Assembly: GCA_016795565.1 (NCBI GenBank)
Contig: JAEUGW010000041.1
Coordinates: 1 to 64,000 of the forward strand
Direction: 5' to 3'
Source of the DNA: Opitutaceae bacterium
GTDB lineage: Bacteria; Verrucomicrobiota; Verrucomicrobiia; Opitutales; Opitutaceae
DNA length: 64,000 nucleotides
In this document: piece after piece, positions 25,660 through 50,157 of the stretch
Numbering within the stretch: position 1 is the stretch's first letter
Layout of the letters: each line of letters starts with the position of its first letter
Translations under genes and position numbers: made by a program
Notes under the pieces: model-generated
Told to the model about the DNA's origin: nothing
What the model saw: only the letters and a program-made list of their open reading frames with translations
Database searches by the model: none

Positions 25660-25663
25660 TCCC

Positions 25664-32364: not shown

Positions 32365-33072
32365 TCAGTGGGTTGGGGGTTGGGATTCGGGGATGAAACG
32401 ATCCGAGGCCGGAGCGAGGGTGGCCGGGACGGACGCGACGCCGGGCCGGGAGACGGAGCCGGCCGCCGGAATGGCGGGCGGCGGAGGCGGACGGACGGCG
32501 GGAAGCGGACCGGACCCGGTCTCCCGTAGCCCGGCCGACTCCCGCCCGGAACCCGGTCCGGCGCGCGGTTCCTCCGCGCGGCGGACGGGGTTCATTGGGC
32601 GCAACGTGGGGATGATCCGGGCGGTGAGTTCGACGGCGCCGAACTGGCGCGCGGTCCGGCTGCCGGTGGTCTCGATCCGGATACCCTGCACGGTGAGCCC
32701 GGGCAGGTTCTCCAGCCGTTCGACCGCGGCAATGATGTCGGTCCAGTGCACGGCGGCCGGCTCGGCCGGCCGGAAGGTGACGGCGTCCAAGTTCGCGGCG
32801 GCCACCCACGGGCCGCCGAGGGCTTCGTCCGCCGCCATCGCCGGCCGGTCCGCGGATTCCAGCGGATGCGCCTGCCGCCACTCGGCCAGCTGGCGTTCGG
32901 CGTCGGCCGGCAGGCCCGCGAGGTCGGCGCGCAGCGCCGCCACCTCGGCCACGGCGGCGGGGACGCCCACGGGACGCAGGTGCCGGACGGCGAGCACGAC
33001 GGCCAGCCAGGCCAGCGCGAAGAGCAGCATCGCCCAGACCGGGGCCGGAATCCTTGGTTGCGGCGCGTTCAT
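32365..33072 (-). CDS. PilO/GspM-like inner-membrane protein
   Basis: A 235-residue protein with a short cytoplasmic N-terminus, one helix at about 12-30 (VWAMLLFALAWLAVVLAVRHL), a periplasmic alpha-beta part (ALRADLAGLPADAERQLAEWRQ and GLTVQGIRIETTG strand) and a long proline-rich C-terminus. This matches PilO/GspM topology, though similarity is weak, and the Pro-rich tail is unusual. It follows the PilM/N-like gene with a four-base overlap. Confidence 0.6.
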   Translation of the reverse strand: MNAPQPRIPAPVWAMLLFALAWLAVVLAVRHLRPVGVPAAVAEVAALRADLAGLPADAERQLAEWRQAHPLESADRPAMAADEALGGPWVAAANLDAVTFRPAEPAAVHWTDIIAAVERLENLPGLTVQGIRIETTGSRTARQFGAVELTARIIPTLRPMNPVRRAEEPRAGPGSGRESAGLRETGSGPLPAVRPPPPPAIPAAGSVSRPGVASVPATLAPASDRFIPESQPPTH

Positions 33073-34298
33073 CGGGGTCGTCCGGTGAGCCGGACGGTGC
33101 CGGCCGGCAGCCCGGCGGGTTCGACGCGCCAGGTCTCGCCGCCCAGCCGGCCGAGCCAGTCGCGCCAGGCCGCCTCGGTCAGCGCGCCGGCCGCGGTCAC
33201 GCCGCCCGTCACCGTGAACTCGCCGCGCGTGGCGCGCAGCGCCGTCAGCGTCACCGCGCCCGGCACCTGGCCCACGGCGCGGAGCCACGGGCCGAAGACC
33301 GGCGCCGGCCGGCCCGCCTCGGCCCGGAGCGCCGCCAGTTCCGCCTGCGCCTGCTGCCGCCGGGCGATCTCGGCCCGCAGCGCGGGGACTTCCCGCGCGA
33401 GTTCCGCCCCGGTGCGGCGGGCGGTGATTTCGCGGTGGAGGTATTCGCCCCCGAGCGCCAGCCCGGCCGCCAGCACCAAGGCGCACGCCGCCGCCAGCGC
33501 GCGCGCCGGCAGCAGGACCGCACCCGGCGGCAGCAACTGTGCCGGGTGGCGGCCAGAGATCGGCGCCGGCTTGGCCAGCGCCTCCCACACCGAGAAGTGC
33601 CCGACTACGCGGTCGCCGATGAGGGGCAGCCGCTGGTTCAGGGCGTCAATCAGGCTGTCGTCCGTTGTCACATAGAGGACGAATTCGTCCGGATGTTTGG
33701 CGAAGGTCGCCTGAAGGATGCCTGCGAGCTGGTCGAGGACATCGGCGCCCTGTCCGGTCTGCACCGAGCGGACGCCTTCGGGCGAGTGGCGATAGAGACA
33801 GAAGCGCTCGGCGCTGACGGCGACCAAGGTCATCGCCCCCGAATCCGACAGATCCGGCGGCAGCGCGTTGAGCCACGTCGGCAGCGGCCACACGGAATCG
33901 ACCGTGAAGCCATGCTCCTGCAATTGGTGGACCAACCCAAAAAGGGCCGGCCGGGTTTCGTGGTGCAACAGGGTGTTGAACGATTCGCCGGCCGCGAGGA
34001 TCGGCTCGTGGCTCCACACAAGTCCCGGATGCGTCACCACCGGAAACTCCTCGGCCAGCGCGAGCGACAGCACCGTTCTGCCGGCGTTCGGACACGTGGC
34101 CGGCACGGTCGCGAAATCGTCCGGGTGATAGACGATCCGCAGCCGCTTGGTCCGGCCCGGCCATGCCGCCGCCAGCAAGGCGGCCGCCTGGGCCGGCTCG
34201 GCGAACGGCACCGGCAACTGGTGTCGGGGCAGCCACCACCGGTCGCCCCACAGGAGAACCGTGGCCGCCTCAGATTTCAGTGATGAAAATAAAGACAT
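33069..34298 (-). CDS. PilM/PilN or GspL-like assembly protein
   Basis: A 409-residue bitopic protein: a cytoplasmic actin-like part (about 1-245, TLVAVSAERFCLYRHSPEG, DEFVLYVTTDD), one helix at about 268-290 (ALAAACALVLAAGLALG), a coiled coil and a small periplasmic domain (VTLTALRATRGEFTVTGGV). This is GspL-like, or a fused PilM-PilN, joining ATPase to pilus machinery. ATG 34298 has GGAG six bases upstream; ATG 34310 has none. It overlaps the prepilin gene by 29 bases. Confidence 0.68.
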   Translation of the reverse strand: MSLFSSLKSEAATVLLWGDRWWLPRHQLPVPFAEPAQAAALLAAAWPGRTKRLRIVYHPDDFATVPATCPNAGRTVLSLALAEEFPVVTHPGLVWSHEPILAAGESFNTLLHHETRPALFGLVHQLQEHGFTVDSVWPLPTWLNALPPDLSDSGAMTLVAVSAERFCLYRHSPEGVRSVQTGQGADVLDQLAGILQATFAKHPDEFVLYVTTDDSLIDALNQRLPLIGDRVVGHFSVWEALAKPAPISGRHPAQLLPPGAVLLPARALAAACALVLAAGLALGGEYLHREITARRTGAELAREVPALRAEIARRQQAQAELAALRAEAGRPAPVFGPWLRAVGQVPGAVTLTALRATRGEFTVTGGVTAAGALTEAAWRDWLGRLGGETWRVEPAGLPAGTVRLTGRPR

Positions 34299-35022
34299 CG
34301 GTGACTCCATTTACGGGGGCGGCATACGCGACCAGTCCGGTGTCACAGGCGGCACCCGGCACGGGCGCCAGCTGCGGGGCGTTCATCGCGAGCGCCAGTT
34401 CGTAGGCGTCGTTGGCGGGTGCCCCGATGATCACCAGATACGCGATGATGACGTTGGTCGGCCGGTTGGTGACGCCATCCAACCGGAAGTTCGCCCCCTG
34501 GGCCGCCGACGGGGCGAGCGCCGGGTTGGATGACCGCGCCTCGATCCGGGTGGCCCCCGTCCAGTTGCGCAACGGCGCCGCATCGGGGGTCATGACGAAG
34601 GCCTGGGCCGCCTGGCTCCAGGTCATCTCGTTGCCGGTCCCGGTCGAAGTGTAGACCTGGCTGCCCATCCGCACGCTGAGCGGGTGCTCCATTTTTCCGG
34701 CGGAGAGCAGCACGGTGTCGAGCCGGGCGGCGTTGCCCTTCGCGGTGTCGGTCGCGCCGCCGAGTGCCGCCCCCGAGGTCGGGATGCCGGTCCCCTCGGT
34801 GCGCGGGATGCTGCCGTTGCCGCCCGGCATGTTGATGAAGTCCACCAAGGCGGTCTTCAGGGTGTCGGCCGCCCGGGCGACCTGATGGACGCGCGCGGCG
34901 CGCAGGGCGTCCTGGCCCTTGGGCAACAGCAAGGCGGCCAGCACGGCGAGGATCGCGAGGACGAACATGAGTTCGAGAAGGGAGAAGCCCTTCACCGAAG
35001 GATGATTTCGATTTCTTTTCAT
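34270..35022 (-). CDS. Type IV prepilin-like protein
   Basis: A 250-residue protein with a basic leader and the prepilin peptidase site G/FSLLELMFVLAILAVL at about 12-28 (Gly before Phe+1, Glu at +5), followed by a helical stalk and a globular domain. It should be processed by a host prepilin peptidase, since no pilD gene is in the window. It is one of two prepilins of the module and the larger spacing of cysteines is not obvious. It lies 27 bases downstream of the ATPase gene. Confidence 0.82.
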   Translation of the reverse strand: MKRNRNHPSVKGFSLLELMFVLAILAVLAALLLPKGQDALRAARVHQVARAADTLKTALVDFINMPGGNGSIPRTEGTGIPTSGAALGGATDTAKGNAARLDTVLLSAGKMEHPLSVRMGSQVYTSTGTGNEMTWSQAAQAFVMTPDAAPLRNWTGATRIEARSSNPALAPSAAQGANFRLDGVTNRPTNVIIAYLVIIGAPANDAYELALAMNAPQLAPVPGAACDTGLVAYAAPVNGVTDVFIFITEI

Positions 35023-35049
35023 GGGGGGTTATGGGTTACGGGTTGAAAT

Positions 35050-36249
35050 TCAGAGCACGCGCGCGACTTCCTCCACGGTCGTGAGCCCGGCGCCGGCCGC
35101 CGCGAGCCCGTGTTGCCAGAGCGTGCACAGCCCCTCGCGGTCGCGGAGCCTCGCGAGTTCGGCAAGCGGCGCATGGGCCGCAATGAGCGGCAGAAACTTC
35201 TGCGCGGGGATGACCTCGTGGATGGCAAGCCGGCCGCGATAGCCGCGCCCGCGGCACGCGGGACAGCCGACCGGCCGGAAGAAATGCGCCCCGGGCACCT
35301 GATGCTCCGCCGCGAGCCGCGCGCTTTCGGGATGCGGCTCCTTGCACTCCGCGCAAAGTTTCCGCACGAGCCGCTGGGCCGCGAGCAAGCGCAGCGCCGC
35401 CGCCAGCAGGAAGGTTTCGACACCCAGGTCGCGCAGGCGCGGAATCGCCGAGAGCGCATCATTGGTATGCAGCGTCGAAAGCACCAGGTGTCCGGTGAGC
35501 GCCGCGCGCACCGCAAGCTGGGCCGTCTCCGCATCGCGGGTTTCGCCCACGAGAATGACATCGGGGTTCTGCCGGAGCATCGCCCGCAACGCAGTCGCAA
35601 AGGTGAGACCGACCTTTTCGCGGATCTCGGTCTGCCGAATGCCGGGGAACTCGTATTCCACCGGCTCTTCGAGCGTGTGGATGACGCGGGAGGAATGATC
35701 GAAGGTGTGGAGGGCGGCGTGCAGGGTCGTGGTCTTGCCGGAGCCGGTCGGCCCGGTGAGGAAGATGAGCCCGGCCGGCCCGGTCAGCGCTTCTTGCACT
35801 GCCGTCGCCTGTGCCGGTGCCAGCCCCAGTTCGGTGAACGACTGCGCCGGCATCGACTGGTCGAGGAGCCGGACCACGAGGCTCTCACCGTGCACGGTGG
35901 GCACCGTGTTCATCCGCAGGTGGAACCGCCGGCCCCGTTCCTGCAGCAGCGCCCGGCCGTCCTGCGGCAGGCGCTTTTCAGTGATGTCCATGCCGCCGGT
36001 GATTTTTCCGCGCGCCAGCAACGCGTCGCGCTGGGCAAGCGGCAGCCGCGCGTGCTCGCGCATTTCGCCGTCGAGCCGGAAGCGGATCACGAGCCCGTCT
36101 TCCTTCGGCTCGCAATGGACATCGCTCGCGCCCTCGCGCGCCGCGGCCCGGAGGATCGCATCCAAGGTGCGTGTCGCGTTGCCGCCGGTTTCCAATGGCG
36201 GTGTGACCGGGACGGCCGGGGTCCGTAATTTGTCGAGCAGCGCCAGCAT
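35050..36249 (-). CDS. PilB/GspE-family assembly ATPase
   Basis: A 399-residue hexameric secretion ATPase that drives pilin polymerisation. N2-type domain (ASDVHCEPKEDGLVIRFRLDG), Walker A GPTGSGKT (166-173), Asp box, Walker B region NPDVILVGETRD, His box STLHTNDA, and a tetracysteine zinc site (LCAEC...GCPAC) typical of GspE/PilB but not PilT. The N1 (MshEN/GspE_N) domain of the usual 500-570 residue proteins is missing. Its ATG overlaps the secretin stop by one base. No separate VirB11 gene exists in the element. Confidence 0.9.
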   Translation of the reverse strand: MLALLDKLRTPAVPVTPPLETGGNATRTLDAILRAAAREGASDVHCEPKEDGLVIRFRLDGEMREHARLPLAQRDALLARGKITGGMDITEKRLPQDGRALLQERGRRFHLRMNTVPTVHGESLVVRLLDQSMPAQSFTELGLAPAQATAVQEALTGPAGLIFLTGPTGSGKTTTLHAALHTFDHSSRVIHTLEEPVEYEFPGIRQTEIREKVGLTFATALRAMLRQNPDVILVGETRDAETAQLAVRAALTGHLVLSTLHTNDALSAIPRLRDLGVETFLLAAALRLLAAQRLVRKLCAECKEPHPESARLAAEHQVPGAHFFRPVGCPACRGRGYRGRLAIHEVIPAQKFLPLIAAHAPLAELARLRDREGLCTLWQHGLAAAGAGLTTVEEVARVL

Positions 36250-37652
36250 TAGCGGATGAGTTTCGGGGTGAGGAAAATCACGAGTTCGGTCCGGTTGTGC
36301 AGGGTCGCCTTCGTCTTGAACGCCCGTCCGGCCACCGGGATCGAGCCCAGGACCGGCACCGCGCGTGTGCTGCCGCCGGTGTCCTCGGAGATCAGTCCGC
36401 CGATAACGGCGGTCTCGCCGTCCTTCAGCCGCACGATGGTCGAAGCCTGCTTCACCTCCGTCAGCGGGGCGGTCTGCTTGCCGTCCGGGCTCGTCACAAT
36501 CGCCTGCAACCGCGTGATCGCTGGAAGCACATCGAGCGTGATGACGCCGTTGCCGTCGATCTGCGGAGTCACCGCCAGGATGGTCCCGATGGTGATGGTC
36601 GAAACCGAGTAGTTCTCCTGTGTCTGGTTCACCGGCACGCTCGTCCCGCCCTGCTGGAAGGTGGTCGATTGCTGCAGGCGGAAGAACGGGCGGTCCTCGC
36701 CGACCTTGATGAAGCTCGTCTGATTATTGAGCGCCCGCAGCCGGGGCTGTGCCACGGTCGTCACCTCGCCTTGCTGTTGCAGCGCATGGATGACCGCCGT
36801 CGCCCGCCCAAACCCCAGGTTCGCGGCAAACGTGTTGGGGGCGAGCAAGGCCCCGCCCACGCCGACGACATCGAGCGGCGCGCCGCCCTCGACCGAGACC
36901 TTCCCGACCGCGCCGGCGGCAAGGTCCCAGTCGATGCCGAGCTTGCGCTCGTCGCGCAGCGTGACCTCGACAATCCGCGCCTCGATCTCGACCTGCCGCG
37001 TGATGCGCGTATTCACCAGTTCCAGGAACGCCCGGAGGGTTTCGTGCCGCGCGACGGGAGCCGTCACCTGCACGACCCCGGAGAATTTGTTTAGCACGAG
37101 ACTGTCGCCGTCCTTCAGCATCGCCCGCAGCTCCGCTTCCAGCCCGGTCCAGAAGGTGTTCTGGTTCTCCTGCGAGATGGACACCTGCGTGGCATCCGAG
37201 CCGACGCCGTTCTGCCCGGGCAACTGGCTGGGGTTGGCCAGCGTGGGCGTCGGGTAACCGTTGCCGTAGCTGCCGTTGTTCGCCCCGCCGAGTGTGATGG
37301 ACGCGCTGCCGGAGCCGCTGCGGGTAAGCTGCGGATAATCGACCGGATAGAGGACGGTCTTGCGGAACCGCACGGCGATCCCGCCGGCCGTCTCTTCAAA
37401 GTGGTATCCGCCCGGTCGGGTGAGCGCCAAGAGGACCGAGCGCAGCGTGCTGCGGGCGATCTCCACGGTCACATCGCCCGTGACGTCGGGTTCGATGAGG
37501 AGAGTGGCGCCGGTTGCGCGCGCCAGGGTCCGGAGCGCCGCCGGCAGCGGTGCGTTTTCCAGCCGCAGGTTTTCCACCGGGCGGTCGAGTTCGCTGGGCT
37601 CGGCCGCGCGGAGCAGTGCCGCCGAAAAAAGTAAGCAGGAAAGAATCTTCAT
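36249..37652 (-). CDS. Secretin (MshL/PilQ/GspD family)
   Basis: A 467-residue outer-membrane secretin with signal peptide (MKILSCLLFSAALLRAAEP). Short N-domain (LRLENAPLPAALRTLARATGATLLIEPDV), a Gly/Asn-rich linker, then the secretin domain: RQVEIEARIVEVTLRDERKL, TVAQPRLRALNNQ, and the conserved end VPVLGSIPVAGRAF...TELVIFLTPKLIR. It forms the outer-membrane pore for a pilus or substrate. It most resembles MSHA-type MshL in its short length. ATG 37652 begins the signal peptide. Confidence 0.9.
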   Translation of the reverse strand: MKILSCLLFSAALLRAAEPSELDRPVENLRLENAPLPAALRTLARATGATLLIEPDVTGDVTVEIARSTLRSVLLALTRPGGYHFEETAGGIAVRFRKTVLYPVDYPQLTRSGSGSASITLGGANNGSYGNGYPTPTLANPSQLPGQNGVGSDATQVSISQENQNTFWTGLEAELRAMLKDGDSLVLNKFSGVVQVTAPVARHETLRAFLELVNTRITRQVEIEARIVEVTLRDERKLGIDWDLAAGAVGKVSVEGGAPLDVVGVGGALLAPNTFAANLGFGRATAVIHALQQQGEVTTVAQPRLRALNNQTSFIKVGEDRPFFRLQQSTTFQQGGTSVPVNQTQENYSVSTITIGTILAVTPQIDGNGVITLDVLPAITRLQAIVTSPDGKQTAPLTEVKQASTIVRLKDGETAVIGGLISEDTGGSTRAVPVLGSIPVAGRAFKTKATLHNRTELVIFLTPKLIR

Positions 37653-37656
37653 GGGA

Positions 37657-39390
37657 TCAGGGGTTGCCGATAACGTAGTTGGCCGCCTCCGCCGTCCGGC
37701 CTGTCTGGAGGAGCGTGCGCGCGGCCGTGTGATATTTGAGCACCGCTGGAGCCGCCGCATTGAACGTCCCGGTAATGGGTGGAGCCGCCAGCGTGTAGGC
37801 GTCGCCGGGCTGGACGGCCTGGATCGTGATGGACCCGGGCCCGGTTACGGTCAGCGTGCCGTTGCTGAAAGTCGCGGGACCACCCAGCACCACGAAACTC
37901 ACGGGCAGCCCGGAGGAGGACGTGGCGGTGAGCGGCAGAGCCGCCCCGACATTCTGGTCGCCCGGCGGCGTGAACGAGATGCTCTGCGCCGCCTTCGGTG
38001 CGAACTGCGCCTGCACGAACTTCGCCCGGTCGAGCAGCACTGCGATCGGGCTGGCCGGGCCGGCCGCGTCGCCAGTCCAGCCGGTGAAGTAGTGGGCGGC
38101 ATCGGGCGTGGCCGCGATGGTCACGGTCGTGCCGTAGGGATAGTTCCCGCCGGGAGTTACGTTGCCGCCGACACTGGCATTCGTGGTCAGGGAGAGGTTC
38201 TTCGGGGCAAAACCAGCCTGCACGGTTTTCGCCCGGTCCATGAGGACGGCGAGCGGGTTGGCGCTGCCGCCCGCATCACCGCTCCAGCCGGTGAAGTCAT
38301 GCGTGCCAGACGGAGTGGCGGTGATCATGACGGTCGTGCCGGCCGTATAAGTGCCGCCGGCGGACACCGCGCCGCCCGCACCCGCGACGGTGACCAGGGC
38401 AAACTGGGCCGGCGGCGGAGCAATGACGGTGATGGCGACGGTGCCGGAGTGATACCACCCGCTGCCGTCGTTTGCCGCCGCCCTGACATAGTAGGTGCCG
38501 ACGTCCGTGAAGGTGAAACCGGCGGAGCGGGTCGAGTCAGCGGCGCTGCCGACCGCGCCGCCCTGGAACGGTTCACCCGCGGCAAACCCGCCTTGGAAGT
38601 TCCAGTCCCCGGTGGGCCGCTGGATGTCGAGATTGTGGTTGGAGATGTTCCCGTCTGGATCGGTGGCGCGGCTGGCAATCGTCAGAACTGTGCCCGCCGT
38701 GATGGTTTGCGCCCCGGGAGCAAGCAGGGTGACCGTGGGCGGCTGGTTCACCACGGCGTCAATCGTGACGGTGTGCGTGATAAGGGGTGAGGTGGCGCCG
38801 TCGGCATCCACTGCCTGGGCGGTAAAGGTAACGGTCTGCGGGCCGGGGTCGTTGGTCCAGTTGCCGGAGTCGCCATCCATCCCGTTGCCGCCGCCGGCGA
38901 AAGCGAAGGGCTGGCCGTTCTTCCATACGTTTACCTGCGTGAGGTTGCCGTCGTCGTCGTGGCCGTGCGCAGTGACGTTGTAGCCCTGGCCGGCGGCGCT
39001 GCTGCCGGGAGCGATGTTCCATGTTATGGTCGGCGGCAGGTTGACGGGACCCACCTGGATCAAGTTGCCCGGTTGGTAGTAGGTGGTGCCGGACTGCGGC
39101 GCCGCATACCCGTAGCCGTTCCACACCTGCCAAATACCCGTTTCGTTCAGGGTGACGGTCCGCGACGAAGCGCCGTCCGGACAGTCGAGACCGAAATGGG
39201 AATCCTCCGAATACCACTGGCCGGTCGGACTCATCAGGGAGATGGCCCCCCAGGATTGGATCCCGTCGTAGGTGGTCCAGTGGTAGGAACTCACCACGAA
39301 CGGAGTGCCCAGGGCGGCCTGCTCCGCCGCCCGGACGTTGGCCGGCCAGGCGGTGGCAAAGGCGAAGAGAACAAATAACAGGTGTTTCAT
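37657..39390 (-). CDS. Secreted Ig-like/InlB-repeat protein in the pilus operon
   Basis: A 577-residue protein with a signal peptide (MKHLLFVLFAFATAWPANV). Order of modules: an N-terminal domain, two Ig/PKD-like domains (PPTITWNIAPGSSAAG, PPTVTLLAPGAQTI), then two InlB-type B-repeats (VMITATPSGTHDFTGWSGDA and VTIAATPDAAHYFTGWTGDA) and a C-terminal part. Such repeats are typical of surface adhesins. It sits between a prepilin and the secretin in one operon, so it may be exported through the secretin or decorate the pilus to recognise recipients. The role is inferred. Confidence 0.75.
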   Translation of the reverse strand: MKHLLFVLFAFATAWPANVRAAEQAALGTPFVVSSYHWTTYDGIQSWGAISLMSPTGQWYSEDSHFGLDCPDGASSRTVTLNETGIWQVWNGYGYAAPQSGTTYYQPGNLIQVGPVNLPPTITWNIAPGSSAAGQGYNVTAHGHDDDGNLTQVNVWKNGQPFAFAGGGNGMDGDSGNWTNDPGPQTVTFTAQAVDADGATSPLITHTVTIDAVVNQPPTVTLLAPGAQTITAGTVLTIASRATDPDGNISNHNLDIQRPTGDWNFQGGFAAGEPFQGGAVGSAADSTRSAGFTFTDVGTYYVRAAANDGSGWYHSGTVAITVIAPPPAQFALVTVAGAGGAVSAGGTYTAGTTVMITATPSGTHDFTGWSGDAGGSANPLAVLMDRAKTVQAGFAPKNLSLTTNASVGGNVTPGGNYPYGTTVTIAATPDAAHYFTGWTGDAAGPASPIAVLLDRAKFVQAQFAPKAAQSISFTPPGDQNVGAALPLTATSSSGLPVSFVVLGGPATFSNGTLTVTGPGSITIQAVQPGDAYTLAAPPITGTFNAAAPAVLKYHTAARTLLQTGRTAEAANYVIGNP

Positions 39391-40340: not shown

Positions 40341-40344
40341 AAAT

Positions 40345-41547: not shown

Positions 41548-41548
41548 A

Positions 41549-42157
41549 TCAGAGGGGCAGCCGGAGGCGGACGGGCTTCTCGGTGAGCGGTAGCCGGAGG
41601 AGTTCCGCGCCGTGCCGGAGGAGCACGGCCGCCGGTTCGATGCGGACCACATCGAGGGATTCGATCCGGTCGCCGGCCTGCACCGGCCGGCCGTTGATGA
41701 GGGCGCAAGGCGACGGCCCGCGCACGATGCCGCCTACACGCAGCGCGATCTCCCTCACGGATTCAGGTGGCAGGGTGCGGACGGCGAAGGGATTGGCTTC
41801 GTCGCCGATGCGAACGGCCGTCAGGTCCAGTAAGCCCTCGGCGTTCGGCATCAGGGCCGGTTCGTTGACGGGCTCCGGCAAGGGCGCTGTGGGGACCATA
41901 GCTGATGCCTGCACCGGCGAGGGCGGAGCCGACGCGGTGACCGGTTTGGGCTGCGCTTCAAGTTCGCGCACCCGGCTGCCGAGGGCTTCGTTCTGCGCGA
42001 TGAGCGCTTCGATGTGCCGGCGCTGGCGCACGGCCGGGTCGGCCCGCTCTGGTATGGGTGCGGGGGCCGCCACCGGTGGGCTGACGGGAGCGACCGGTTG
42101 GGGAGCGCTCTGGCAGCCGGCCAGCGCCAGCAGGCAAAGGAAGAGGCTAGTTCGCAT
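41549..42157 (-). CDS. PilP/GspC-like lipoprotein
   Basis: A 202-residue lipoprotein (lipobox LALAGC, lipidated Cys near 15). A proline-rich linker is followed by a helical stretch (HIEALIAQNEALGSRVRELE) and a C-terminal beta domain (CALINGRPVQAGDRIESLDVVRIEPAAVLLRHG) like PilP/GspC/GspB periplasmic domains. It would link inner-membrane pilus parts to the secretin. It overlaps the VirB10-like gene by 11 bases, physically joining the T4SS and pilus gene sets. Confidence 0.7.
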   Translation of the reverse strand: MRTSLFLCLLALAGCQSAPQPVAPVSPPVAAPAPIPERADPAVRQRRHIEALIAQNEALGSRVRELEAQPKPVTASAPPSPVQASAMVPTAPLPEPVNEPALMPNAEGLLDLTAVRIGDEANPFAVRTLPPESVREIALRVGGIVRGPSPCALINGRPVQAGDRIESLDVVRIEPAAVLLRHGAELLRLPLTEKPVRLRLPL

Positions 42158-43133
42158 GAGCGGGTGTGGCCGCGCCAAGGCGGGCGCGGCCGGGGTCGAT
42201 TGCTTCGGTGACATAGAGGTAGAACGCCTTGCCCGCGGGGATGCGGACGTAGAACCCATCGCGGGCAATGGCCTCGCGGATCTGCTGCGCGTATTCGCGG
42301 AGCACCGCACCCGTGCCGGCGAGGGTCGCATTCCGGGCGGTCGTGGCCGGCAGGCTCGTCTCGCCCAGCAGTCCGGCGGCGGAGCGGGTGTCCTGCAGCG
42401 CCGCGGTGGCGCTCGAAAGGAACGTGGCCGCGAAAAGCTGGACCTCGCGCCAGTCGCTCGTCCGGAGCACTTCGCCGCGCAGCCCGGCTGATCCGTCATG
42501 CGACCCCCATGCACCGGTCGCCTCGTCGCGTTCCCGATCGAGGGCCAGCCCGCGAACATTCAGCTCGCGGCCGTTCTCGGGCCCGGCCCGCCAGACAATC
42601 GTCCAGGTGCCCTCGGCTGCCAGGCGCTCGCGCGCCCGGTCCGGTGACGCCCGGCCGTGCACCTCGGCTCCGGCGGGCACGACCCGCCGGCCGGCCTGCC
42701 AGACATCCTCGGTCACGAGCCCGATGACGGGCGTCTCCAGCCGGTTGGATTCGATGGCGAGCACGGTCTCGCACGGAATCAACCGGCCATAGGGCGCGGC
42801 CGACTCGGCAGCATCAGCCGGTGCGGCCGGTGCGGTCATGAGCGACAGCGGCAGAACCGGCGGCGGCGCGGGGACCGGCTTGGGTTCGGCGGGATTCTGA
42901 ATCTGGCGCGGGCTGGATGGCGCTGGTTCCTCCACCTTGGTGAAATTGAGTCGCGCGCCTTCCCGCTGGACCGTGCGCGGCAGGGCGGCCACCGGGGCCG
43001 CGTGAACGGCAGGCAACGCGGCGGTCTTTCGCTGGCGCTGGGTGTAGAGCGCGACGCCCGCGAAAACGACCAGCGCTCCCACCAGGACGACCTGGCCGGT
43101 GGGTGAGGCAAAGAATGTCGTGTCGAACTTCAT
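42147..43133 (-). CDS. VirB10/TrbI-like scaffold protein
   Basis: A 328-residue protein: a short cytoplasmic start, one helix at about 13-31 (GQVVLVGALVVFAGVALY), a proline-rich periplasmic linker and a C-terminal beta-barrel-type domain (RLIPCETVLAIESNRLETPVIGLVTEDVW, VVPAGAEVHGRAS, GFYVRIPAGKAFYLYV), as in VirB10/TrbI. It would couple inner-membrane energy to the outer-membrane channel. Smaller than typical VirB10 (380-430). Overlaps the VirB9-like gene by four bases. Confidence 0.75.
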   Translation of the reverse strand: MKFDTTFFASPTGQVVLVGALVVFAGVALYTQRQRKTAALPAVHAAPVAALPRTVQREGARLNFTKVEEPAPSSPRQIQNPAEPKPVPAPPPVLPLSLMTAPAAPADAAESAAPYGRLIPCETVLAIESNRLETPVIGLVTEDVWQAGRRVVPAGAEVHGRASPDRARERLAAEGTWTIVWRAGPENGRELNVRGLALDRERDEATGAWGSHDGSAGLRGEVLRTSDWREVQLFAATFLSSATAALQDTRSAAGLLGETSLPATTARNATLAGTGAVLREYAQQIREAIARDGFYVRIPAGKAFYLYVTEAIDPGRARLGAATPAHAN

Positions 43134-43945
43134 GGCAGCCGGGTGACGAGCACCGAAAAAACATTCTGCACGGAGAGATTGGCCCGGCCGCCGCCGGGCG
43201 CGCCGGTCACGGCAAACCAAACCGTGGTGTGTCCGCGCGGCGGGAGTTCGCCGGTCGTGTCCGCAAGCGCCGCCGGGTAGATCTCCGGTCCCACCCGCAC
43301 GGCGAGGTTGTCCGCGTCGAACCGGACCGGAGTGGAGCCCGGGTTCTCGACCCGCACGCGGAAAACCAGCGTGTCCTCCACATCGAAGCGGAACACCTCC
43401 TCCAAGGTAACTGTGAACCCCGGATACCGCGTGACGCTGCGCGGACCGGCCCGTTCCACCGCCTGGGTCAGCGCCGGATACTGGGCGGCCAGGAGCGCGT
43501 GGTTCTTCGCCCGGTCGAGCAGGCTGCGCACGAGGACGGGAGTCGCCACCGGCGAACTTGCCACTGGTGCGTCGAAGAACGACACCGCGCGGTCGGCCTC
43601 CTCGGCCGCACGGAAGGTGAAGACATACACCCGCCCGCGATAGATCACGTTGACGGCGGCGGTCGCATCCGCGCGGAGCGCCCGCACGGAAAAGAAGCTC
43701 GTGCCCGGCTGGTAGGACAATAGCACCGGCGGTGAGTCCTCGGGCTTGGTCGAAAGGTTGGCGCTCTCCAACGCCGTGAGCGCCCCGGGAAACAGGCAGG
43801 TGGTCGGTTCGTCCCGGCTGACGCGGATGGAATAGGCCATGCGCTCGTCGAGCGGATAGGTCCGGATCGCCTCCCAGGAGGCCGCGAAGACCATGCTCCA
43901 GCCGCTCATGAGCAGCCCCGCTACGGCAAAAGTTCGTATCGCCAT
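43130..43945 (-). CDS. VirB9/TrbG-like channel protein
   Basis: A 271-residue exported protein (signal MAIRTFAVAGLLMSGWSMVFA). N-terminal strands (AIRTYPLDERMAYSIRVSRDEPTT), a central VNVIYRGRVYVFTFRA strand pair and a C-terminal beta-sandwich (FRFDVEDTLVFRVRVENPG, TVWFAVTGAPGG). The position between VirB8-like and VirB10-like genes and the fold pattern suit VirB9/TrbG. Similarity is weak, so this is partly by context. Confidence 0.58.
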   Translation of the reverse strand: MAIRTFAVAGLLMSGWSMVFAASWEAIRTYPLDERMAYSIRVSRDEPTTCLFPGALTALESANLSTKPEDSPPVLLSYQPGTSFFSVRALRADATAAVNVIYRGRVYVFTFRAAEEADRAVSFFDAPVASSPVATPVLVRSLLDRAKNHALLAAQYPALTQAVERAGPRSVTRYPGFTVTLEEVFRFDVEDTLVFRVRVENPGSTPVRFDADNLAVRVGPEIYPAALADTTGELPPRGHTTVWFAVTGAPGGGRANLSVQNVFSVLVTRLP

Positions 43946-44580
43946 ACGGCCAGGGGGTAGCGGCCGTTGACGACCAGGTTGGGGTTGCGCGCGAATGTGA
44001 ATCGCGCGGTGAAAGCGGGCGCTTCGGTGAACGGCCGGCCCTGAAACAGTCCTGTGCGAATCCACTGGCCCTCGACTTGAACGAGCACGGTGTCCTCGCG
44101 TGTCTCCAGCACGGTGAGCTTCAGCACCTCGAGCTTCTGGTGCAGCGACTTGGCCGCAAACTCCTCCGCGCTGCGCGCGATCTCTTCGCGCGCCTGCTTC
44201 AGCGCCTCCGGTAGGAACAGCTTTTCCAGCAGCTCCGGGTGGTCGCTGCCCGCGGGATTGCGCGACCACAGCGCCAGGCACGCGAGGAGCGCGTGCATCT
44301 CATGGAGTTTGCCGGCCTCCTCGAAGCCGAGGAGCGGGCTCTGGTGAAACGTCCCGGCCCCATCGAGGATGACGACGCGTTCACGCGTGCGGTAGGCCCG
44401 GATCACGAGGTAAGGCGCGATGACCGCGTAGGCCGTGGCAACGAGCGCCACCAAAAACCACAGCCGGGCTGCCACCGCATAGTCGGTGAATAATTCCAGC
44501 GGATGCCTCCGGCGGCGGGGCGCCGTGGCCGGGTCGAGCCGCACATGTGGGGCGGGAGTTTCGCGCAAGGTCTGGCTCAT
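43921..44580 (-). CDS. VirB8/TrbF-like inner-membrane protein
   Basis: A 219-residue bitopic protein: cytoplasmic Pro/Arg-rich N-terminus, one helix at about 38-58 (ARLWFLVALVATAYAVIAPYL), and a periplasmic domain of VirB8 type with a helical half and a curved sheet (LEVLKLTVLETREDTVLVQVEGQWIRTG, PAFTARFTFARNPN). It nucleates the channel. It overlaps the VirB9-like start by 25 bases. Confidence 0.68.
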   Translation of the reverse strand: MSQTLRETPAPHVRLDPATAPRRRRHPLELFTDYAVAARLWFLVALVATAYAVIAPYLVIRAYRTRERVVILDGAGTFHQSPLLGFEEAGKLHEMHALLACLALWSRNPAGSDHPELLEKLFLPEALKQAREEIARSAEEFAAKSLHQKLEVLKLTVLETREDTVLVQVEGQWIRTGLFQGRPFTEAPAFTARFTFARNPNLVVNGRYPLAVWRYELLP

Positions 44581-44582
44581 GG

Positions 44583-45641
44583 TCAGCAGGTGTTTTGCGG
44601 CGCGGGCATCCGCGTCGAGGCCAGCAGTGCGGCGACGGCTTGGTCGCCGGCAGGGTCGGACTTGGGGACACTCGCGGGTGAGACCGGGGCCGGCGGTGTC
44701 GGCGGCGGCAGCGGCGTGGGCATCGAAGGTGGCGGCGGTCCGCCGTCGGGCGGCACCTTCGCAGCTCCGCCCGCGGAGCCGACCACCGCCGCCGCGCCGC
44801 CCGTCTTGAGCGACTTGGCGAGCCAGACCACCTGCTGCAAGGTGTAGAGCTGCTGCAAGCCCTGACCGCCGCCACCCGAGAGAGGGGAACCCGAGCAGAA
44901 GAGCATCTGCATCAAAAACGGCGTCCCGAGCGTGCCGAGGACCAGCCACACGGCGGCGAACAATGCCCCCAATAGGCTGGCAAAGGACATCGCGTCGATC
45001 TCCCCGGGCCGCAATCCGTAGGCGGTCGCGAGGTTGGTGGAATACGCGGTCAGCAGGTTCCAGGTGACCAGTTCGGTGATCGCGAAGCCGACCGGCCACG
45101 CGAGCACGGCGAGCGTCTGTTGCAGATACCGCACCCCGAGGTTGTCGAGTCCCGGCAGCATGAACATCGACAGCGCGACCGGCAGGAACAGGAAGCAGAG
45201 CAGCTTCAGGATGTAGTGCAGGATGAGGAGCGGCAGCTGCAGCACGCTCGCCACGAGCACCACGAGCTTGCCCGAACCCATGAGGAACGCGCGGTAAAGC
45301 GACTCGCCCATCCGCGCGAAACTGAAGTCGTTCGCGCTTTCCGTCATGCCGTCCCGTAACAGCGCGGCGGCCTGCATCGGGTGCTCGGTGTAGCCGTGAT
45401 GGAACACCTCGGCCATCGAGAGGAACGAGTCCTCGGTGAACGCGAACCACCACGGCAGCGTGGTGGTGAATCCGACCACCAGCACCGCCCGCACAACCGG
45501 CTGCACCAGGCTGTCCTGTTCGGGCCGCGCCCGGCTGACGCGGAGCATGAGCCCCGCGACGCACACGAAATAGACCACGAACCGCAGCGACTCGGTGAGC
45601 GCCACGACGGACTCGCGGAAGCCTGGGACGAAGTTGTCCAT
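44583..45641 (-). CDS. VirB6/TrbL-like polytopic membrane protein
   Basis: A 352-residue protein with six or so hydrophobic segments (FVVYFVCVAGLMLRV, VVRAVLVVGFTTTLPWW, LVVLVASVLQLPLLILHYIL, LCFLFLPVALSMFML, SFASLLGALFAAVWLVLG) and a long Pro-rich C-terminal tail. This is the topology of VirB6/TrbL, part of the inner-membrane pore for the DNA. It lies between a tiny membrane gene and the VirB8-like gene. Confidence 0.8.
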   Translation of the reverse strand: MDNFVPGFRESVVALTESLRFVVYFVCVAGLMLRVSRARPEQDSLVQPVVRAVLVVGFTTTLPWWFAFTEDSFLSMAEVFHHGYTEHPMQAAALLRDGMTESANDFSFARMGESLYRAFLMGSGKLVVLVASVLQLPLLILHYILKLLCFLFLPVALSMFMLPGLDNLGVRYLQQTLAVLAWPVGFAITELVTWNLLTAYSTNLATAYGLRPGEIDAMSFASLLGALFAAVWLVLGTLGTPFLMQMLFCSGSPLSGGGGQGLQQLYTLQQVVWLAKSLKTGGAAAVVGSAGGAAKVPPDGGPPPPSMPTPLPPPTPPAPVSPASVPKSDPAGDQAVAALLASTRMPAPQNTC

Positions 45642-45886
45642 CAGTTGCGGCGCTCCTGCGGACGCTGCCGCTCTTCCTCGGCCTTGAGTTTTTCGAGCAG
45701 GCGCTTCTTCGCCACCTCGTCGGGCGTGTAGCTGCCGCCCCGGTCCAGCTTGATCGAATCCTGCCACGCATCGACCGGTTGCAGTCCGGCCGGCGCGACC
45801 GGACGGGGTGACCGCCGCCACATGAGCCAGCCGCCCAAGGCGATGCCGGCGAGCAGGACTAAGAGATAGACCGCCATTTTCTTCAT
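45641..45886 (-). CDS. Small single-helix membrane protein
   Basis: An 81-residue protein: one N-terminal helix (AVYLLVLLAGIALGGWLMW) then a charged helical tail rich in Lys/Glu/Arg. It overlaps both neighbours (1 and 4 bases). It may be an entry-exclusion or stabilising T4SS subunit; no family is recognisable. Confidence 0.6.
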   Translation of the reverse strand: MKKMAVYLLVLLAGIALGGWLMWRRSPRPVAPAGLQPVDAWQDSIKLDRGGSYTPDEVAKKRLLEKLKAEEERQRPQERRN

Positions 45887-46698
45887 GGGCGCGTATAGTT
45901 GGTGGGGGTGAGCCGCAGCGACCGCTGCCAGGCGTTGGCGACCGCCACCGACTGCCGTTCCTCGGCGATCTGCTTTTCCTGCAAGTCCCGCCGTTCCTTC
46001 TCGGCTTGGTTCTCGTTGAGGATCTGTGCCGCCAGCAGCTTGCCCGTTTCCTCACTGCGCCGCGCCGCGAGTCCCGCCAGCCGCCCGTTGAGCGCATCGA
46101 CCGTGGCGTGCAGCTTCTCGGTTTCCGCCTGCGTTGACGCGTTCCGCAGGTCGTTCACGGCCGCCGCCAGGTCCGTTTGCACTGCGGCGATGTCGGCGTC
46201 GGTGGCGGCCAGCACGACACCGACATTGTCGCCCTGCCTTTCGACCGCCGCGTAGCGGCGATATAGCTCCGGCTGCCGGGCAAAGCTGGCGCCCAGCGAC
46301 GTTTTATCGTCCAGAGCGCGATAGATTCCATCCGAGGTGCGCTTGAGCGAATCCACCGCATCGGACAGCCGCCGCATCGCGTCCATCGTCTCGCCGTAGG
46401 TCTTGCCAAACTCGGTTCCGCCCAAGGTGCGGCGGATCACGCGGTCACCGGCCCGGGCCGGATCGCCCATGACCTCGCGGATCATCCGCTGGGTGGCCAG
46501 CAGGTCCTCGACCTGCCTGATCTGCCGGTTCAGTTTCTCCAACTGGTCGGCCCACTGCCGCATGGTTTCGGCGTGCTGGGCGATCTGGTTGCCCTTGATG
46601 GCCGCATTGACGGCGGTGTTGGCCGGGTCGATGACAACCCATTGGGCGAAGGCCGGGCTGGTGAGGCCGGCGAGAAGGATGAGGGGAATCAGTTTCAT
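45883..46698 (-). CDS. VirB5/TrbJ-like exported protein
   Basis: A 271-residue secreted helical protein (signal MKLIPLILLAGLTSPAFA), then WVVIDPANTAVNAAIKGNQIAQHAETMRQ, the characteristic start of TrbJ/VirB5 proteins, followed by long coiled helices (EKLNRQIRQVEDLLATQR, EKERRDLQEKQIAEERQ). VirB5 localises to the pilus tip. It overlaps the following lipoprotein by four bases. Confidence 0.75.
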   Translation of the reverse strand: MKLIPLILLAGLTSPAFAQWVVIDPANTAVNAAIKGNQIAQHAETMRQWADQLEKLNRQIRQVEDLLATQRMIREVMGDPARAGDRVIRRTLGGTEFGKTYGETMDAMRRLSDAVDSLKRTSDGIYRALDDKTSLGASFARQPELYRRYAAVERQGDNVGVVLAATDADIAAVQTDLAAAVNDLRNASTQAETEKLHATVDALNGRLAGLAARRSEETGKLLAAQILNENQAEKERRDLQEKQIAEERQSVAVANAWQRSLRLTPTNYTRP

Positions 46699-46931
46699 GG
46701 GGAGTGGGGCAGGAAGATTTCCACCGTCGAAGGCACGCGCAGGGCGCCGTCCTCGAGCCGGGCGGGCTGGCGGAGTCGCACGCGGGCGGCTGGTCCCGGC
46801 GGAGTTTTCCGCTGCGCCTCCTGGGTCGCCCAATACCGCGCCTTCACCGCCTGGTTGACGGCGGCCTCGGGCCCGGCCGGATGGGCACACCCGGCGCACA
46901 GCAGCAGACTAAGCGGCAGGAGCCGACGCAT
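46695..46931 (-). CDS. Small lipoprotein (VirB7 candidate)
   Basis: A 78-residue lipoprotein with lipobox LLLCAGC and a short mature region (HPAGPEAAVNQAVKARYW). Size, position between VirB4 and VirB5-like genes and lipidation fit a VirB7-type stabiliser of the outer-membrane core. Sequence alone does not prove it. It overlaps virB4 by 23 bases. Confidence 0.62.
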   Translation of the reverse strand: MRRLLPLSLLLCAGCAHPAGPEAAVNQAVKARYWATQEAQRKTPPGPAARVRLRQPARLEDGALRVPSTVEIFLPHSP

Positions 46932-49524
46932 GGTTTGCCTCCGGTGGGGGTTGGATGTGAAGGAGCGTGCCGCATTGCGGCGGCTGCGCCGTGGGCAGGA
47001 AGTAGCACACCGACGAATGCCGGTGACCGGCCGGCTGCTGCTCTGGCAGCTGGTAGTTCGGGATTGTCTCCAGCGCGCTCTCCGGCAGCGGCAGGTCGCG
47101 CGCCAGGTCGATCAGGTCGCTGCGGTCCGCCTGCCGCATCAGGAAAAATTGTTTTGCGTTACCAATAACGGCCGAGCGCACGCGCGAGGCGCGGAACCGG
47201 GCGTATTGCTGGACGACACTGACGGCCCAGCAGTTGAATTTTCGCAGCTGGGCGTAGCTTTCCGAAACAATCGCTTCGCCGCCCGGCACGTCGAGGAACC
47301 GCGCAACCTCCTCGAAGATGATCCGCTTCCGCTGCGCCCGCGGGAGCCCGAGGATGTGCTGGCGGGCGAATCCGGAAATAAGAAGTCCCGTGGCGGTCTT
47401 CAATTCAACCGCCTGCTCCGGGATGAGCCCGAGCTCAAAATGCGCGACGCTGCGCTTTAGCGACACGTTGGTGACGCCGTCGAAGAGCCGGCCAAACTGT
47501 CCTCGCGCGGTCCACGCCCCCAGCAGGGTCGCCAGCCGGTCCGTCTCCTCCTTGGGATGTTCCGGCAGCCGGCCGTAGGCCAGCAGCTCGACGAGCGCCC
47601 CGTGCGTGGGAAAATCCTCCGGCGTCCACAGGGCACACGCCGTGTGCGTCACCAGCCGCGCGGTGGCGGGGTCCTGCGCGAACCGCGTGATGGTCACCTC
47701 GTCCAGCCGGGCGACAAATTCGAGCGTCTCCGCGTCATTCGCGTTCCGCCGGTCGCGCAATTCGGCGTAAGCCTCCAGCGCCGTCGTGCCCGCCGGCATC
47801 CGTTCGCGCCAGCGGTGGACCGCACAGGCGAGCCGCCCGGCCTCGCGCGCCTGCTCGGGATGCGCCCGCGACCAGTCCGCAAACGCGTCCTGATAGAGCA
47901 GGTGCACATACTGCGCGAGCTGCGCCTGGCGAAGGGCCTGCCGCTCCGCATCGGCTGGCTCGCCGGTCATGCGCGCCAACAACGCGACCGCGCTCGCCAC
48001 CTGGAGTTGCGTGAGCGGCAGGCCCAAAGTGTCGAGGTAGTTGAGCGTGAGCGGCGCATCGGGTTGAACCACGATGGGCGTCTCTCCCAACTCCTCGGTG
48101 TAAGATTTATAGGACAGTCCCTCCTCGACGATCAGCGTGTAGGCGTAATGCCCCGCCGTCTGGAGGAGCAGGTCGCGCATCTTCTCCGACTTGCCGGACC
48201 CGCTCATGCCGAAGACCACCGCGTGCTGCGGCGAACCGCCCACGGCGGTGCTGACGCCGACGAGGTTCCGGTTCACGCCGTCGTAAAGTGCCTCGGCTGA
48301 GTCGAGGCAGCCCGTGAACGTGCTGGAGAACGGCAGCAGGTCGGCCAGGTTGGCGTCCTCGGCATACAGGTCCCAGTCCCGGTAGGACGAATGGGTCCAG
48401 CCCGGCCAGGACCCAAAGAAGAGTTTCTTCGCCGTCGTCGGCCGCGCGCATTCATAATACTGCGCGCCGTTCATCGCGTGGATCGCCGCCTGCAGCTGGC
48501 TCACCTTGTCCCGCAGCCCCTGCCGCGTGGCATCCCACACCCGCACGACATAGCCGACCCGGAACGGCCGGGCGAAGCCGCCCGCCAGGCTCTCGATCTT
48601 GCGCTCCTTTTTCTGGAGCGCGACCCACAGAGAGTGCCGCTTTTCCCCGGCGTATTCGCCGGCCAGCCGCTCCATCGCCCGTTCCTCGCGGTGGATTTCC
48701 CCGCGCGTCTCCACGGGCGTCACGTTGACGGAGATCTGGTAGTCGAGGAAAGGCAGGCCCGTGAGAAAAGTAACCATGCCCGGCTTCGTGCCGCGCGGCC
48801 ACCGGGTCAGCACCAAGACGCAGTGGTAGTGCCCGTCGAGAAGGAAGCCGCCGTCCGGCTGGCCTACGCCGTCGGCGAGCCAGCAGTTTTCCTGGATGGT
48901 GAGGCCGGGTTCACAGGGCGGCGGACCGGCGTCGCGCCGGGCGAGTCCCGGATTGAGGAAGCGGTGCAGGCATTCGCAATGCGCCGCATCGTCCATCGGC
49001 CGGATGGGTGTCTCCGGGCCGAAGATCGCCCGCGCTGCCCCGGCAAATTCTGCAAACTGCGCCTGCAGTTCCTTGAGCAGCGTGCGGTATCCCTCCAGCA
49101 GGCTGGTTCGCGTGGCGAGATTGCCCGCGTAGGCGGTGACCTCGATGGACAGGAAGATAGCCAGCCGCTCCCGCCGCAGTTCGCGCGCGTGCATCCGCCG
49201 CCAGTAGCGGCTGAACCGCTCGTTCCGGGTCCGGCGGATCACCGGATGAGTGGTCTGCTGGGTTTCCGCGTGATACCGGAGCAGTTCGCGCCGGTAGTCT
49301 GCATCGCAGGACCACTGCACCTGCAAACGGCGTCCCGGGGTCACGAGCGCGAAGAGAGAGCGCACCTGATCCTGAAACGCATTCTTCCGCTCATTGCTGG
49401 CGCCGCGCAGGTCGGGTGACTCAATCCAGAATCCCTTCACGGCGATCGCTCCGCGCTCCAGCGAGCCGTAGAGCAGGAGGTCCTCGGCGAACACTCCGTT
49501 GGGTGCCTCGGCGTGGGGTCTCAT
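46909..49524 (-). CDS. virB4: VirB4/TraC-family T4SS ATPase
   Basis: An 871-residue ATPase that powers channel assembly and DNA transfer. N-terminal CagE/VirB4 domain (FQDQVRSLFALVTPGRR, ...), C-terminal RecA-like domain with Walker A GMSGSGKS at about 434-441, then LTLNYLDTLGLPLTQLQVASAVALLARMTGEP, and a Walker-B-like segment RIIFEEVARFLDVPGG with the final SVVQQYARF. Length and order are normal for TraC/TrbE/VirB4. The start overlaps the upstream VirB3-like gene by four bases. Confidence 0.93.
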   Translation of the reverse strand: MRPHAEAPNGVFAEDLLLYGSLERGAIAVKGFWIESPDLRGASNERKNAFQDQVRSLFALVTPGRRLQVQWSCDADYRRELLRYHAETQQTTHPVIRRTRNERFSRYWRRMHARELRRERLAIFLSIEVTAYAGNLATRTSLLEGYRTLLKELQAQFAEFAGAARAIFGPETPIRPMDDAAHCECLHRFLNPGLARRDAGPPPCEPGLTIQENCWLADGVGQPDGGFLLDGHYHCVLVLTRWPRGTKPGMVTFLTGLPFLDYQISVNVTPVETRGEIHREERAMERLAGEYAGEKRHSLWVALQKKERKIESLAGGFARPFRVGYVVRVWDATRQGLRDKVSQLQAAIHAMNGAQYYECARPTTAKKLFFGSWPGWTHSSYRDWDLYAEDANLADLLPFSSTFTGCLDSAEALYDGVNRNLVGVSTAVGGSPQHAVVFGMSGSGKSEKMRDLLLQTAGHYAYTLIVEEGLSYKSYTEELGETPIVVQPDAPLTLNYLDTLGLPLTQLQVASAVALLARMTGEPADAERQALRQAQLAQYVHLLYQDAFADWSRAHPEQAREAGRLACAVHRWRERMPAGTTALEAYAELRDRRNANDAETLEFVARLDEVTITRFAQDPATARLVTHTACALWTPEDFPTHGALVELLAYGRLPEHPKEETDRLATLLGAWTARGQFGRLFDGVTNVSLKRSVAHFELGLIPEQAVELKTATGLLISGFARQHILGLPRAQRKRIIFEEVARFLDVPGGEAIVSESYAQLRKFNCWAVSVVQQYARFRASRVRSAVIGNAKQFFLMRQADRSDLIDLARDLPLPESALETIPNYQLPEQQPAGHRHSSVCYFLPTAQPPQCGTLLHIQPPPEANHASAPAA

Positions 49525-49844
49525 GGCTCGGTCAGTCCCCGCTGTTGGATGGCACTGCGGCTGAAGGTGCCGCCGCCTAGGAGCTGTTCGATCAAGTCCC
49601 GGTCGTAGGCGGGCGGGCGGCCGTTCCGCAGGAAGACAGCCCAGGCCAGCACCAGCGCAAGCGGCGTGCCCGCCACCACCCCGGCCGTGACCCAGCCGAG
49701 GGCCAGCAATTGCCCCACGACCGCGAAGAGCGCTAGGGCCGCCACCGCCGCGATCACCACCGGCAGGTAAAGGTTGCCATCGAGTCCGAAGACCCGGCCG
49801 CGCGAATCATCCGCCGCATTCGTATCGGTGTGCCGCAGGTTCAT
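49521..49844 (-). CDS. VirB3-like membrane protein
   Basis: A 107-residue protein with two membrane segments (LYLPVVIAAVAALALFAVVG and GWVTAGVVAGTPLALVLAWAVFL) followed by PPAYDRDLIEQLL, a pattern seen in VirB3/TrbD-like proteins located just before virB4. The start overlaps nothing upstream (VirB2-like stop is one base away). Confidence 0.62.
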   Translation of the reverse strand: MNLRHTDTNAADDSRGRVFGLDGNLYLPVVIAAVAALALFAVVGQLLALGWVTAGVVAGTPLALVLAWAVFLRNGRPPAYDRDLIEQLLGGGTFSRSAIQQRGLTEP

Positions 49845-49845
49845 G

Positions 49846-50157
49846 TCAGAAACGCGGTTTGATGACGGCGTCCTCCAGCCCGAAGATCGCGAACAGGGCC
49901 GCCATGATGCTGGCCGCCGCCGCGATGATGACCCCGGCCACGATGCCGGCCTTTCCATCCGGATCGCCCTTGGCAATGGCGTTCGCCCCGGACCAGATTT
50001 TGACGATTCCCCAAATAAAACCGAACATGAACAGCACCGTGAGGGCCAGGCCGAAGCCGTCCTTCAACTGCTGGATTTGGGCCACAAAAGGCCGGGCGTA
50101 GGCCGACAGCGGCAGCGCTTTCTTCAGGCCGACTTGGAAGGAGCCGAGGGGTAGCAT
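49846..50157 (-). CDS. VirB2/TrbC-like pilin
   Basis: A 103-residue protein with two hydrophobic helices (LALTVLFMFGFIWGIVKIWSG and AGIVAGVIIAAAASIMAALFAIFG) joined by a short polar turn, as in VirB2/TrbC major pilins. The N-terminus (SFQVGLKKALPLSAYA) lacks an obvious cleavage site. First gene of the long leftward series; its start lies four bases from the operator-like motif. Confidence 0.65.
   Translation of the reverse strand: MLPLGSFQVGLKKALPLSAYARPFVAQIQQLKDGFGLALTVLFMFGFIWGIVKIWSGANAIAKGDPDGKAGIVAGVIIAAAASIMAALFAIFGLEDAVIKPRF

Follow-up and report, generated by a model that had tools for sequence, protein, structure and literature searches.

A stretch of DNA from an Opitutaceae bacterium, which we read as an integrative conjugative element (ICE), in our view likely encodes a composite apparatus for mating. 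In it, a lipoprotein would tether the secretin of a type IV pilus (T4P) to the outer-membrane core of a type IV secretion system (T4SS). The window, that is, the whole stretch analyzed, comprises positions 1 to 64,000 of contig JAEUGW010000041.1 (assembly GCA_016795565.1) and forms the first 64 kb of this 100.7-kb contig, termed C5, of a 3.52-Mb genome that is 99.99% complete. The genes of a VirB-type T4SS and those of a T4P-like module, here called the pil block, are fused into one series on this conjugative element, and the fusion is conserved in related loci. The gene at the junction, at first taken for a pilP gene, is a chimera of a T4SS lipoprotein N-terminus and a C-terminal HR domain of the PilP/GspC/GspB type.

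Eighteen genes, from VirB2 (50157) to PilO (32365), follow each other head-to-tail on the minus strand. Neighboring genes overlap by 1 to 41 bases or are separated by gaps of 1 to 31 bases, the exception being a 210-base gap between VirB4 and VirB5, and the VirB10 gene overlaps that of the chimeric lipoprotein (‘PilP’) by exactly 11 bases. No sigma-70-like promoters were found inside the row and terminators were not in excess there, both being weak evidence. Pfam and NCBIfam provided the family identities of VirB4, VirB10, the coupling protein VirD4, PilC, one prepilin, the ATPase and the secretin. The row and its 3′ border consist of:

49846..50157, minus strand, VirB2-like pilin of 103 aa (position, and profile kept in 60 of 61 T4SS loci; no Pfam match)
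49521..49844, minus strand, VirB3-like protein of 107 aa (profile conserved in related loci)
46909..49524, minus strand, VirB4/TraC ATPase of 871 aa (P-loop_TraG 6e-7; TraC-F-type 7e-21, below cut-off)
45883..46698, minus strand, VirB5/TrbJ-like secreted protein (DUF4141 1.9e-6, below cut-off)
45641..45886, minus strand, small membrane-anchored protein of 81 aa between VirB5 and VirB6, found in most loci with a pil block
44583..45641, minus strand, VirB6-like polytopic protein (weak TrbL match, E 0.088; position; kept in 57 of 61 loci)
43921..44580, minus strand, VirB8-like protein (position, single N-terminal transmembrane segment, kept in 55 of 61 loci; no family match and no useful sequence match in the PDB)
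43130..43945, minus strand, VirB9/TraO-like protein (predicted fold that of VirB9/TraO in solved T4SS core complexes, Foldseek 4.5e-12; no sequence-family match, and nothing useful from a PDB search with the VirB9 profile)
42147..43133, minus strand, VirB10/TrbI (PF03743 1.2e-16)
41849..42157, minus strand, N-terminal half of the chimeric lipoprotein with lipobox LAGC and coiled coil (T4SS lipoprotein profile)
41549..41848, minus strand, C-terminal half of the chimeric lipoprotein, an HR domain of the PilP/GspC/GspB type (T2SSB, Foldseek)
40345..41547, minus strand, PilC/GspF inner-membrane platform (T2SSF 4.5e-40)
39387..40313, minus strand, prepilin 1 with FSLLE motif (N_methyl E 0.002; conserved in loci with a pil block)
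37657..39390, minus strand, secreted InlB-B-repeat protein, a probable adhesin (PF18998 3e-23)
36249..37652, minus strand, MshL-like secretin with N0 domain (PF00263 1e-38, Secretin_N_2, N0 4e-4)
35050..36249, minus strand, PilB/GspE-type assembly ATPase (T2SSE 5e-115)
34270..35022, minus strand, prepilin 2 with GFSLLE motif (N_methyl 9e-7)
33069..34310, minus strand, PilMN/GspL-like inner-membrane assembly protein (position; conserved in loci with a pil block and in distant T4P loci; no Pfam or NCBIfam match)
32365..33072, minus strand, PilO-like protein with Pro-rich C-terminus (position and topology alone; weakly conserved)
32133..32360, minus strand, s75, a short conserved protein encoded at the block's 3′ border and likewise in T4SS operons without pil genes
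31553..32047, minus strand, s164, a conserved protein of the 3′ border, encoded directly after the lipoprotein gene in operons without pil genes

The row holds an assembly ATPase, a platform, a secretin, prepilins and an HR-domain protein, which place the block in the superfamily of T4P and type II secretion systems (T2SS), together with VirB4, VirB10, a VirB9 core and a weakly matched VirB6, which with the coupling protein and relaxase described below define a VirB/VirD4-type T4SS. Among NCBIfam families, MshL matches the secretin best (TIGR02519, 210 bits, not reaching the cut-off of 250), and the type IVb secretin family TIGR02520 scores 92 bits. The ATPase has no N-terminal MshEN domain and matches structures of PilF/PilB/GspE (1e-94 to 1e-99), PilT (1e-33) and BfpD (2e-31). 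The original prediction, made from the sequence of the window, had described this one-strand series, the 11-base overlap, an MshL-type secretin and two prepilins, all of which hold. It had the genes mostly overlapping by 1–29 bases; the series is indeed tight, but overlaps are longer in places and gaps occur. The InlB-B-repeat gene and the small gene between VirB5 and VirB6 had been overlooked.

Of 384 genomes in the class, 67 contained matches to VirB4, and 61 T4SS loci were annotated using profiles derived from the proteins of the window. Across these loci the genes for VirB2-3-4-5-6-8-9-10, the ‘PilP’ gene and s75/s164 occur in the same order, mostly without pil genes; T4SS operons that have no pil block are common throughout the class. 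Where the block is present (pil+ loci), it sits at one exact site, with the lipoprotein gene on one side and s75/s164 on the other. In the VirB4 tree of 72 rows, the 17 rows from pil+ loci group as a single clade of Opitutaceae (support 100), and one change accounts for the block. Within the family, all checked VirB4s of at least 62% identity with enough sequence downstream were accompanied by the block, and all those of at most 58% were not. No VirB11 was found, T2SSE-type ATPases being confined to the pil+ members of the 61 loci. F-type T4SSs likewise have no VirB11, and its absence is therefore taken to mark a T4SS subtype. Substitution of a lost VirB11 by the PilB-like ATPase is not favored, since the pil-free relatives are also without VirB11. 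The genes s75 and s164, the latter without a Pfam family, are found behind the T4SS genes in many relatives, whether or not these have a pil block.

The chimeric nature of the lipoprotein emerges from comparison of the two kinds of operon. In pil-free operons the gene after VirB10 specifies a lipoprotein some 165 residues long, in which a lipobox and a coiled coil occur together with the motif ‘YPVGRYVDP...HEAH...WNL’; in pil+ operons a longer lipoprotein is encoded in this slot. The whole T4SS N-terminal region is kept in 9 of 30 pil+ members (E 1e-21 to 5e-26 against a profile built from 52 pil-free sequences); most others, including that of the window, retain just the lipobox and coiled coil, and the window protein matches the profile in two pieces (E 1e-5). 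The pil+ lipoproteins end in an additional C-terminal domain of about 95 residues, the HR domain, which is missing from the 52 pil-free lipoproteins (best E 0.27) and whose homologs (1e-8 to 5e-10) occupy the PilP slot in distant T4P loci. In one of these (L146) the PilP-slot protein directly precedes PilC and prepilin 1, as in the window. For 10 of 17 members, Pfam identifies the HR domain as T2SSB (E down to 1.7e-7). In an AlphaFold model of the lipoprotein of locus L034 the domain has a pLDDT above 90. Foldseek ranks GspB (4wfw) and the HR domain of GspC complexed with GspD (3oss) highest, each with a probability of 1.00 but with modest E-values (2e-3 and 5e-3, respectively), the domain being small; the HR domain of PulC is also among the matches. 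The C-terminal domain of PilP binds the N0 domain of the secretin PilQ (PMC3441751), and GspC HR binds N0 of GspD (PMC3169554).

A second, divergent chimera is encoded in the VirB operon of a 102-kb contig of another genome (G410; lipoprotein half 4.5e-8, HR half 8e-17), followed by PilC, prepilin 1 and, further on, a secretin and s164; this assembly has broken frames in VirB4 and PilB. The designation ‘PilP-like’ in the original prediction is thus correct for the C-terminal domain but not for the gene as a whole. That this gene opens the pil block is ruled out, its N-terminal half being the T4SS lipoprotein of pil-free operons; because this half belongs to the T4SS and exists in pil-free relatives, the pil block proper starts at PilC.

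The association of the two modules was also followed from the side of the secretin. A search of 200 genomes of the family gave about 30 matches at 65–80% identity, in 21 genomes and 13 genera, followed by a gap down to 43%. A scan of named genomes gave 37 matches of at least 66% identity, a few of them fragments, nearly all in Opitutaceae, Opitutae or Verrucomicrobia records; two records bore odd titles, a Pedosphaera metagenome-assembled genome (MAG), in which the locus is a complete composite, and an Anaerolinea MAG, with a contig of 4.5 kb. Of the strong block loci, 51 had at least 6.5 kb of upstream sequence (two overlapping collections, 41 distinct secretins), and in all 51 this sequence encoded VirB10, the lipoprotein and PilC; no block of this pil family stood alone among them. 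The same order of VirB and pil genes is repeated in dozens of loci and is for this reason not due to chance. The synteny that the original prediction proposed to look for in Verrucomicrobiota does recur there, and the independent pil block on non-conjugative chromosomes that would have spoken against it was not seen among the 51 loci.

Among the more distant T4P loci (secretin identity of at most 43%), some, with PilT and a MshEN-bearing PilB, show no VirB genes within reach and seem to be the ancestral stock; others (L137, L149, L150, L152) adjoin other T4SSs. In the secretin tree the window-type blocks form one clade (99), and the T4SS-linked loci elsewhere on the tree require further changes. 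Given this scatter, the partnership between T4SS and T4P probably arose more than once. Divergent T4SS and T4P clusters were also observed on plasmid-sized Opitutaceae contigs of 100–102 kb (L231/L232 on contig C2 of G410; L150/L234 on contig C2 of G384), with a partly different gene order and an extra PilT-like ATPase.

Vir and pil genes are both under purifying selection. In three closer pairs of pil+ loci the ratio of nonsynonymous to synonymous substitution rates (dN/dS) was mostly 0.04–0.35 for vir and pil genes alike, and dS was similar; in a fourth pair, which is more distant, a few genes had higher ratios. The two gene sets roughly co-diverge, their distances being correlated (Mantel r 0.72, 0 of 2000 permutations). 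The InlB-repeat gene is among the fastest-evolving of the block (dN/dS 0.27–0.45), and its product varies from about 400 to more than 1300 residues between elements, as expected of an adhesin, while a conserved C-terminus is encoded just before the secretin gene (e.g. L128, 6019–10053; L160, 12444–15746). VirB9 seemingly evolves faster in pil+ operons, a difference not relied on here, as the pil-free set includes some pil+ loci cut before the secretin.

In the mechanism that we propose, the VirB2–VirB10/VirD4/TrwC part would build the DNA-transfer channel, and the pil block would build a type IV pilus from platform, assembly ATPase, secretin and two prepilins. This pilus may display or export the variable InlB-repeat adhesin, catching and holding recipients, with prepilin peptidase, and any retraction, supplied by the host; no prepilin peptidase was found on the element, and the genome encodes one on contig C33. 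The T4SS half of the chimera would sit at the outer-membrane core of VirB9 and VirB10, and the PilP-type half would bind N0 of the block secretin, so that pilus gate and transfer channel would be built side by side. Such a contact is expected because PilP and GspC bind secretin N0 domains and the block secretin has an N0 match. The ‘hybrid mating apparatus’ of the original prediction is reinforced by the chimera, and we infer that the row is read as one transcript, that it acts in mating and that lipoprotein and secretin are in contact. More tentatively, T4SS core and T4P secretin might form one joined envelope machine, a union that would have arisen more than once in Opitutaceae mobile elements. 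If so, the chimera would put the pilus gate beside the VirB9/VirB10 channel or into a common ring with it, and pilus dynamics would bring the recipient to the DNA channel.

Several observations weigh against a pilus-bearing mating apparatus. The window lipoprotein has lost the middle of its T4SS half; the PilMN-, PilO- and VirB8-like proteins are named by position, together with conservation; the block contains no PilT; ATPase and platform are equally close to T2SS and T4P; and the vir and pil trees differ, with 9 of 21 splits shared and identity rejected by the approximately unbiased test (run with 1000 replicates, a lower number than recommended). This test rules out that vir and pil genes are strictly co-inherited, and the conflict implies that blocks were swapped among elements, though their position stays fixed. 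As ATPase and platform are equally near to T2SS, the main rival is a T2SS-like exporter, whose short pseudopilus would export the InlB-repeat protein to the donor surface, as mating adhesin or otherwise. The NCBIfam scores lean this way for the ATPase (GspE 437 bits, PilB 415) and the platform (GspF above PilC), the HR domain most resembles those of GspB/GspC, and almost every pil+ locus encodes a secreted protein other than a pilin between the genes for prepilin and secretin. We nevertheless consider an exporter unlikely: the secretin is closest to MshL, a pilus secretin, none of these matches reaches a family cut-off, and only two prepilins are present, a GspG/H/I/J/K set not being recognized.

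It is more improbable still that the block is cargo, an independent pilus for host adhesion, twitching or DNA uptake that is read from the tra promoter by chance of location. Mobile elements do carry cargo, the host genome has T2SSE ATPases of its own besides the prepilin peptidase, and blocks recombine among elements. Yet the block always occupies the same operon site and is never alone (51 of 51), it is joined to the T4SS by an in-frame fusion with the lipoprotein, and the host already owns T4P-like systems.

Functional precedents for a composite mating apparatus are the IncI plasmids and PAPI-1, both with other classes of T4P and T4SS. The T4P of IncI plasmids aids mating in liquid (PMC9045228, PMC12857230), as for IncI2 in broth (PMC9045228), and that of PAPI-1, described as a chimeric system, is essential for transfer (PMC12857230). 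Elements with the IncI thin pilus (R64, TP114) resemble the one in the window in being conjugative and having their own T4SS and T4P and a variable adhesin. They differ by a type IVb pilus with PilS/PilV and a shufflon, a Dot/Icm-like T4SS (IncI1) and separate gene clusters, whereas the window element combines MshL/T2SS-like components, a VirB-type T4SS and the chimeric lipoprotein in one operon, with a Sec-secreted InlB-repeat protein replacing PilV. Neither a PilN-type IVb secretin nor a PilV shufflon adhesin was found in the block, whose adhesin is not a prepilin. PAPI-1 of Pseudomonas aeruginosa is likewise an integrated element with its own T4P, but has clear homologs of VirB4 and VirD4 only, plus a type IVb pilus, in contrast to VirB2–6 and VirB8–10 together with a T4P block in the window. 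We know of no fusion of a T4SS lipoprotein with PilP in IncI or PAPI-1.

A close parallel to the chimera is VirB7 of Xanthomonas, a T4SS lipoprotein enlarged by a C-terminal N0 domain (PMC3093366). Both have a C-terminal domain known from secretin systems; in VirB7 this is N0 and there is no pilus block, whereas the chimera carries an HR/PilP domain, the natural partner of secretin N0, and is encoded beside that secretin. With type IVa pili, MSHA pili and T2SS the block shares PilB/GspE, PilC/GspF, secretin, prepilins, PilMN/PilO-like proteins and a PilP-type HR domain, but its ATPase is without MshEN, neither PilT nor prepilin peptidase is encoded in it, and PilP is present solely as the T4SS-lipoprotein fusion. 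In the open-access literature, neither a fusion of a T4SS lipoprotein to a PilP/GspC domain nor such an operon was found described, and nothing relevant emerged on a T4SS and T4P arrangement in Verrucomicrobiota or Opitutus.

From 57.6 kb of the window onward, the genes are those of ordinary chromosomal metabolism, among them genes for aldehyde dehydrogenase and glutamine synthetase. Integrase, relaxase, coupling protein and T4SS all lie within one integrated stretch, as in an ICE; the first three are encoded as follows:

7322..9463, plus strand, large serine recombinase, the probable integrase of the element (Resolvase 5e-27, Recombinase 3e-12)
51558..53087, minus strand, VirD4-type coupling protein (PF02534 3e-10, TraG-D_C)
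54148..56868, plus strand, TrwC-type relaxase-helicase, MOBF (PF08751 1.6e-71)

Direct repeats common to both flanks reached at most 14 bases, with no convincing pair to mark the ends of the element, and neither the flank nor an empty insertion site was found in relatives. A second complete composite operon is present in the same genome (L033, contig C38, 166243–186242), with a VirB4 about 65% identical. Decay of this copy is ruled out, VirB3 and VirB4 merely forming one open frame there. Between VirD4 and VirB2, on the strand opposite to both, lies a gene for a ClpB/ClpX-like AAA protein (50456–51577). Defense cargo at 19452–29286 comprises an Avs4-like STAND NTPase (PADLOC 2.6e-133), a PD-Lambda-3_B-like protein, an AbiEii-like nucleotidyltransferase and a TIR-domain protein.

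How pilus and transfer channel are connected in elements that use T4P is an open question, discussed for PAPI-1 (PMC12857230). Here, a natural gene fusion names the likely contact, a T4SS lipoprotein that bears the domain with which PilP and GspC bind their secretins, and thereby opens the question to simple binding and deletion experiments. The arrangement thus gives an exceptionally direct molecular clue to the way in which the two machines may be joined. The fusion suggests a physical coupling of transfer channel and pilus for mating, and would extend pilus-assisted conjugation from the Proteobacteria cases in the cited sources to the Verrucomicrobiota, with other components, arranged as one operon.

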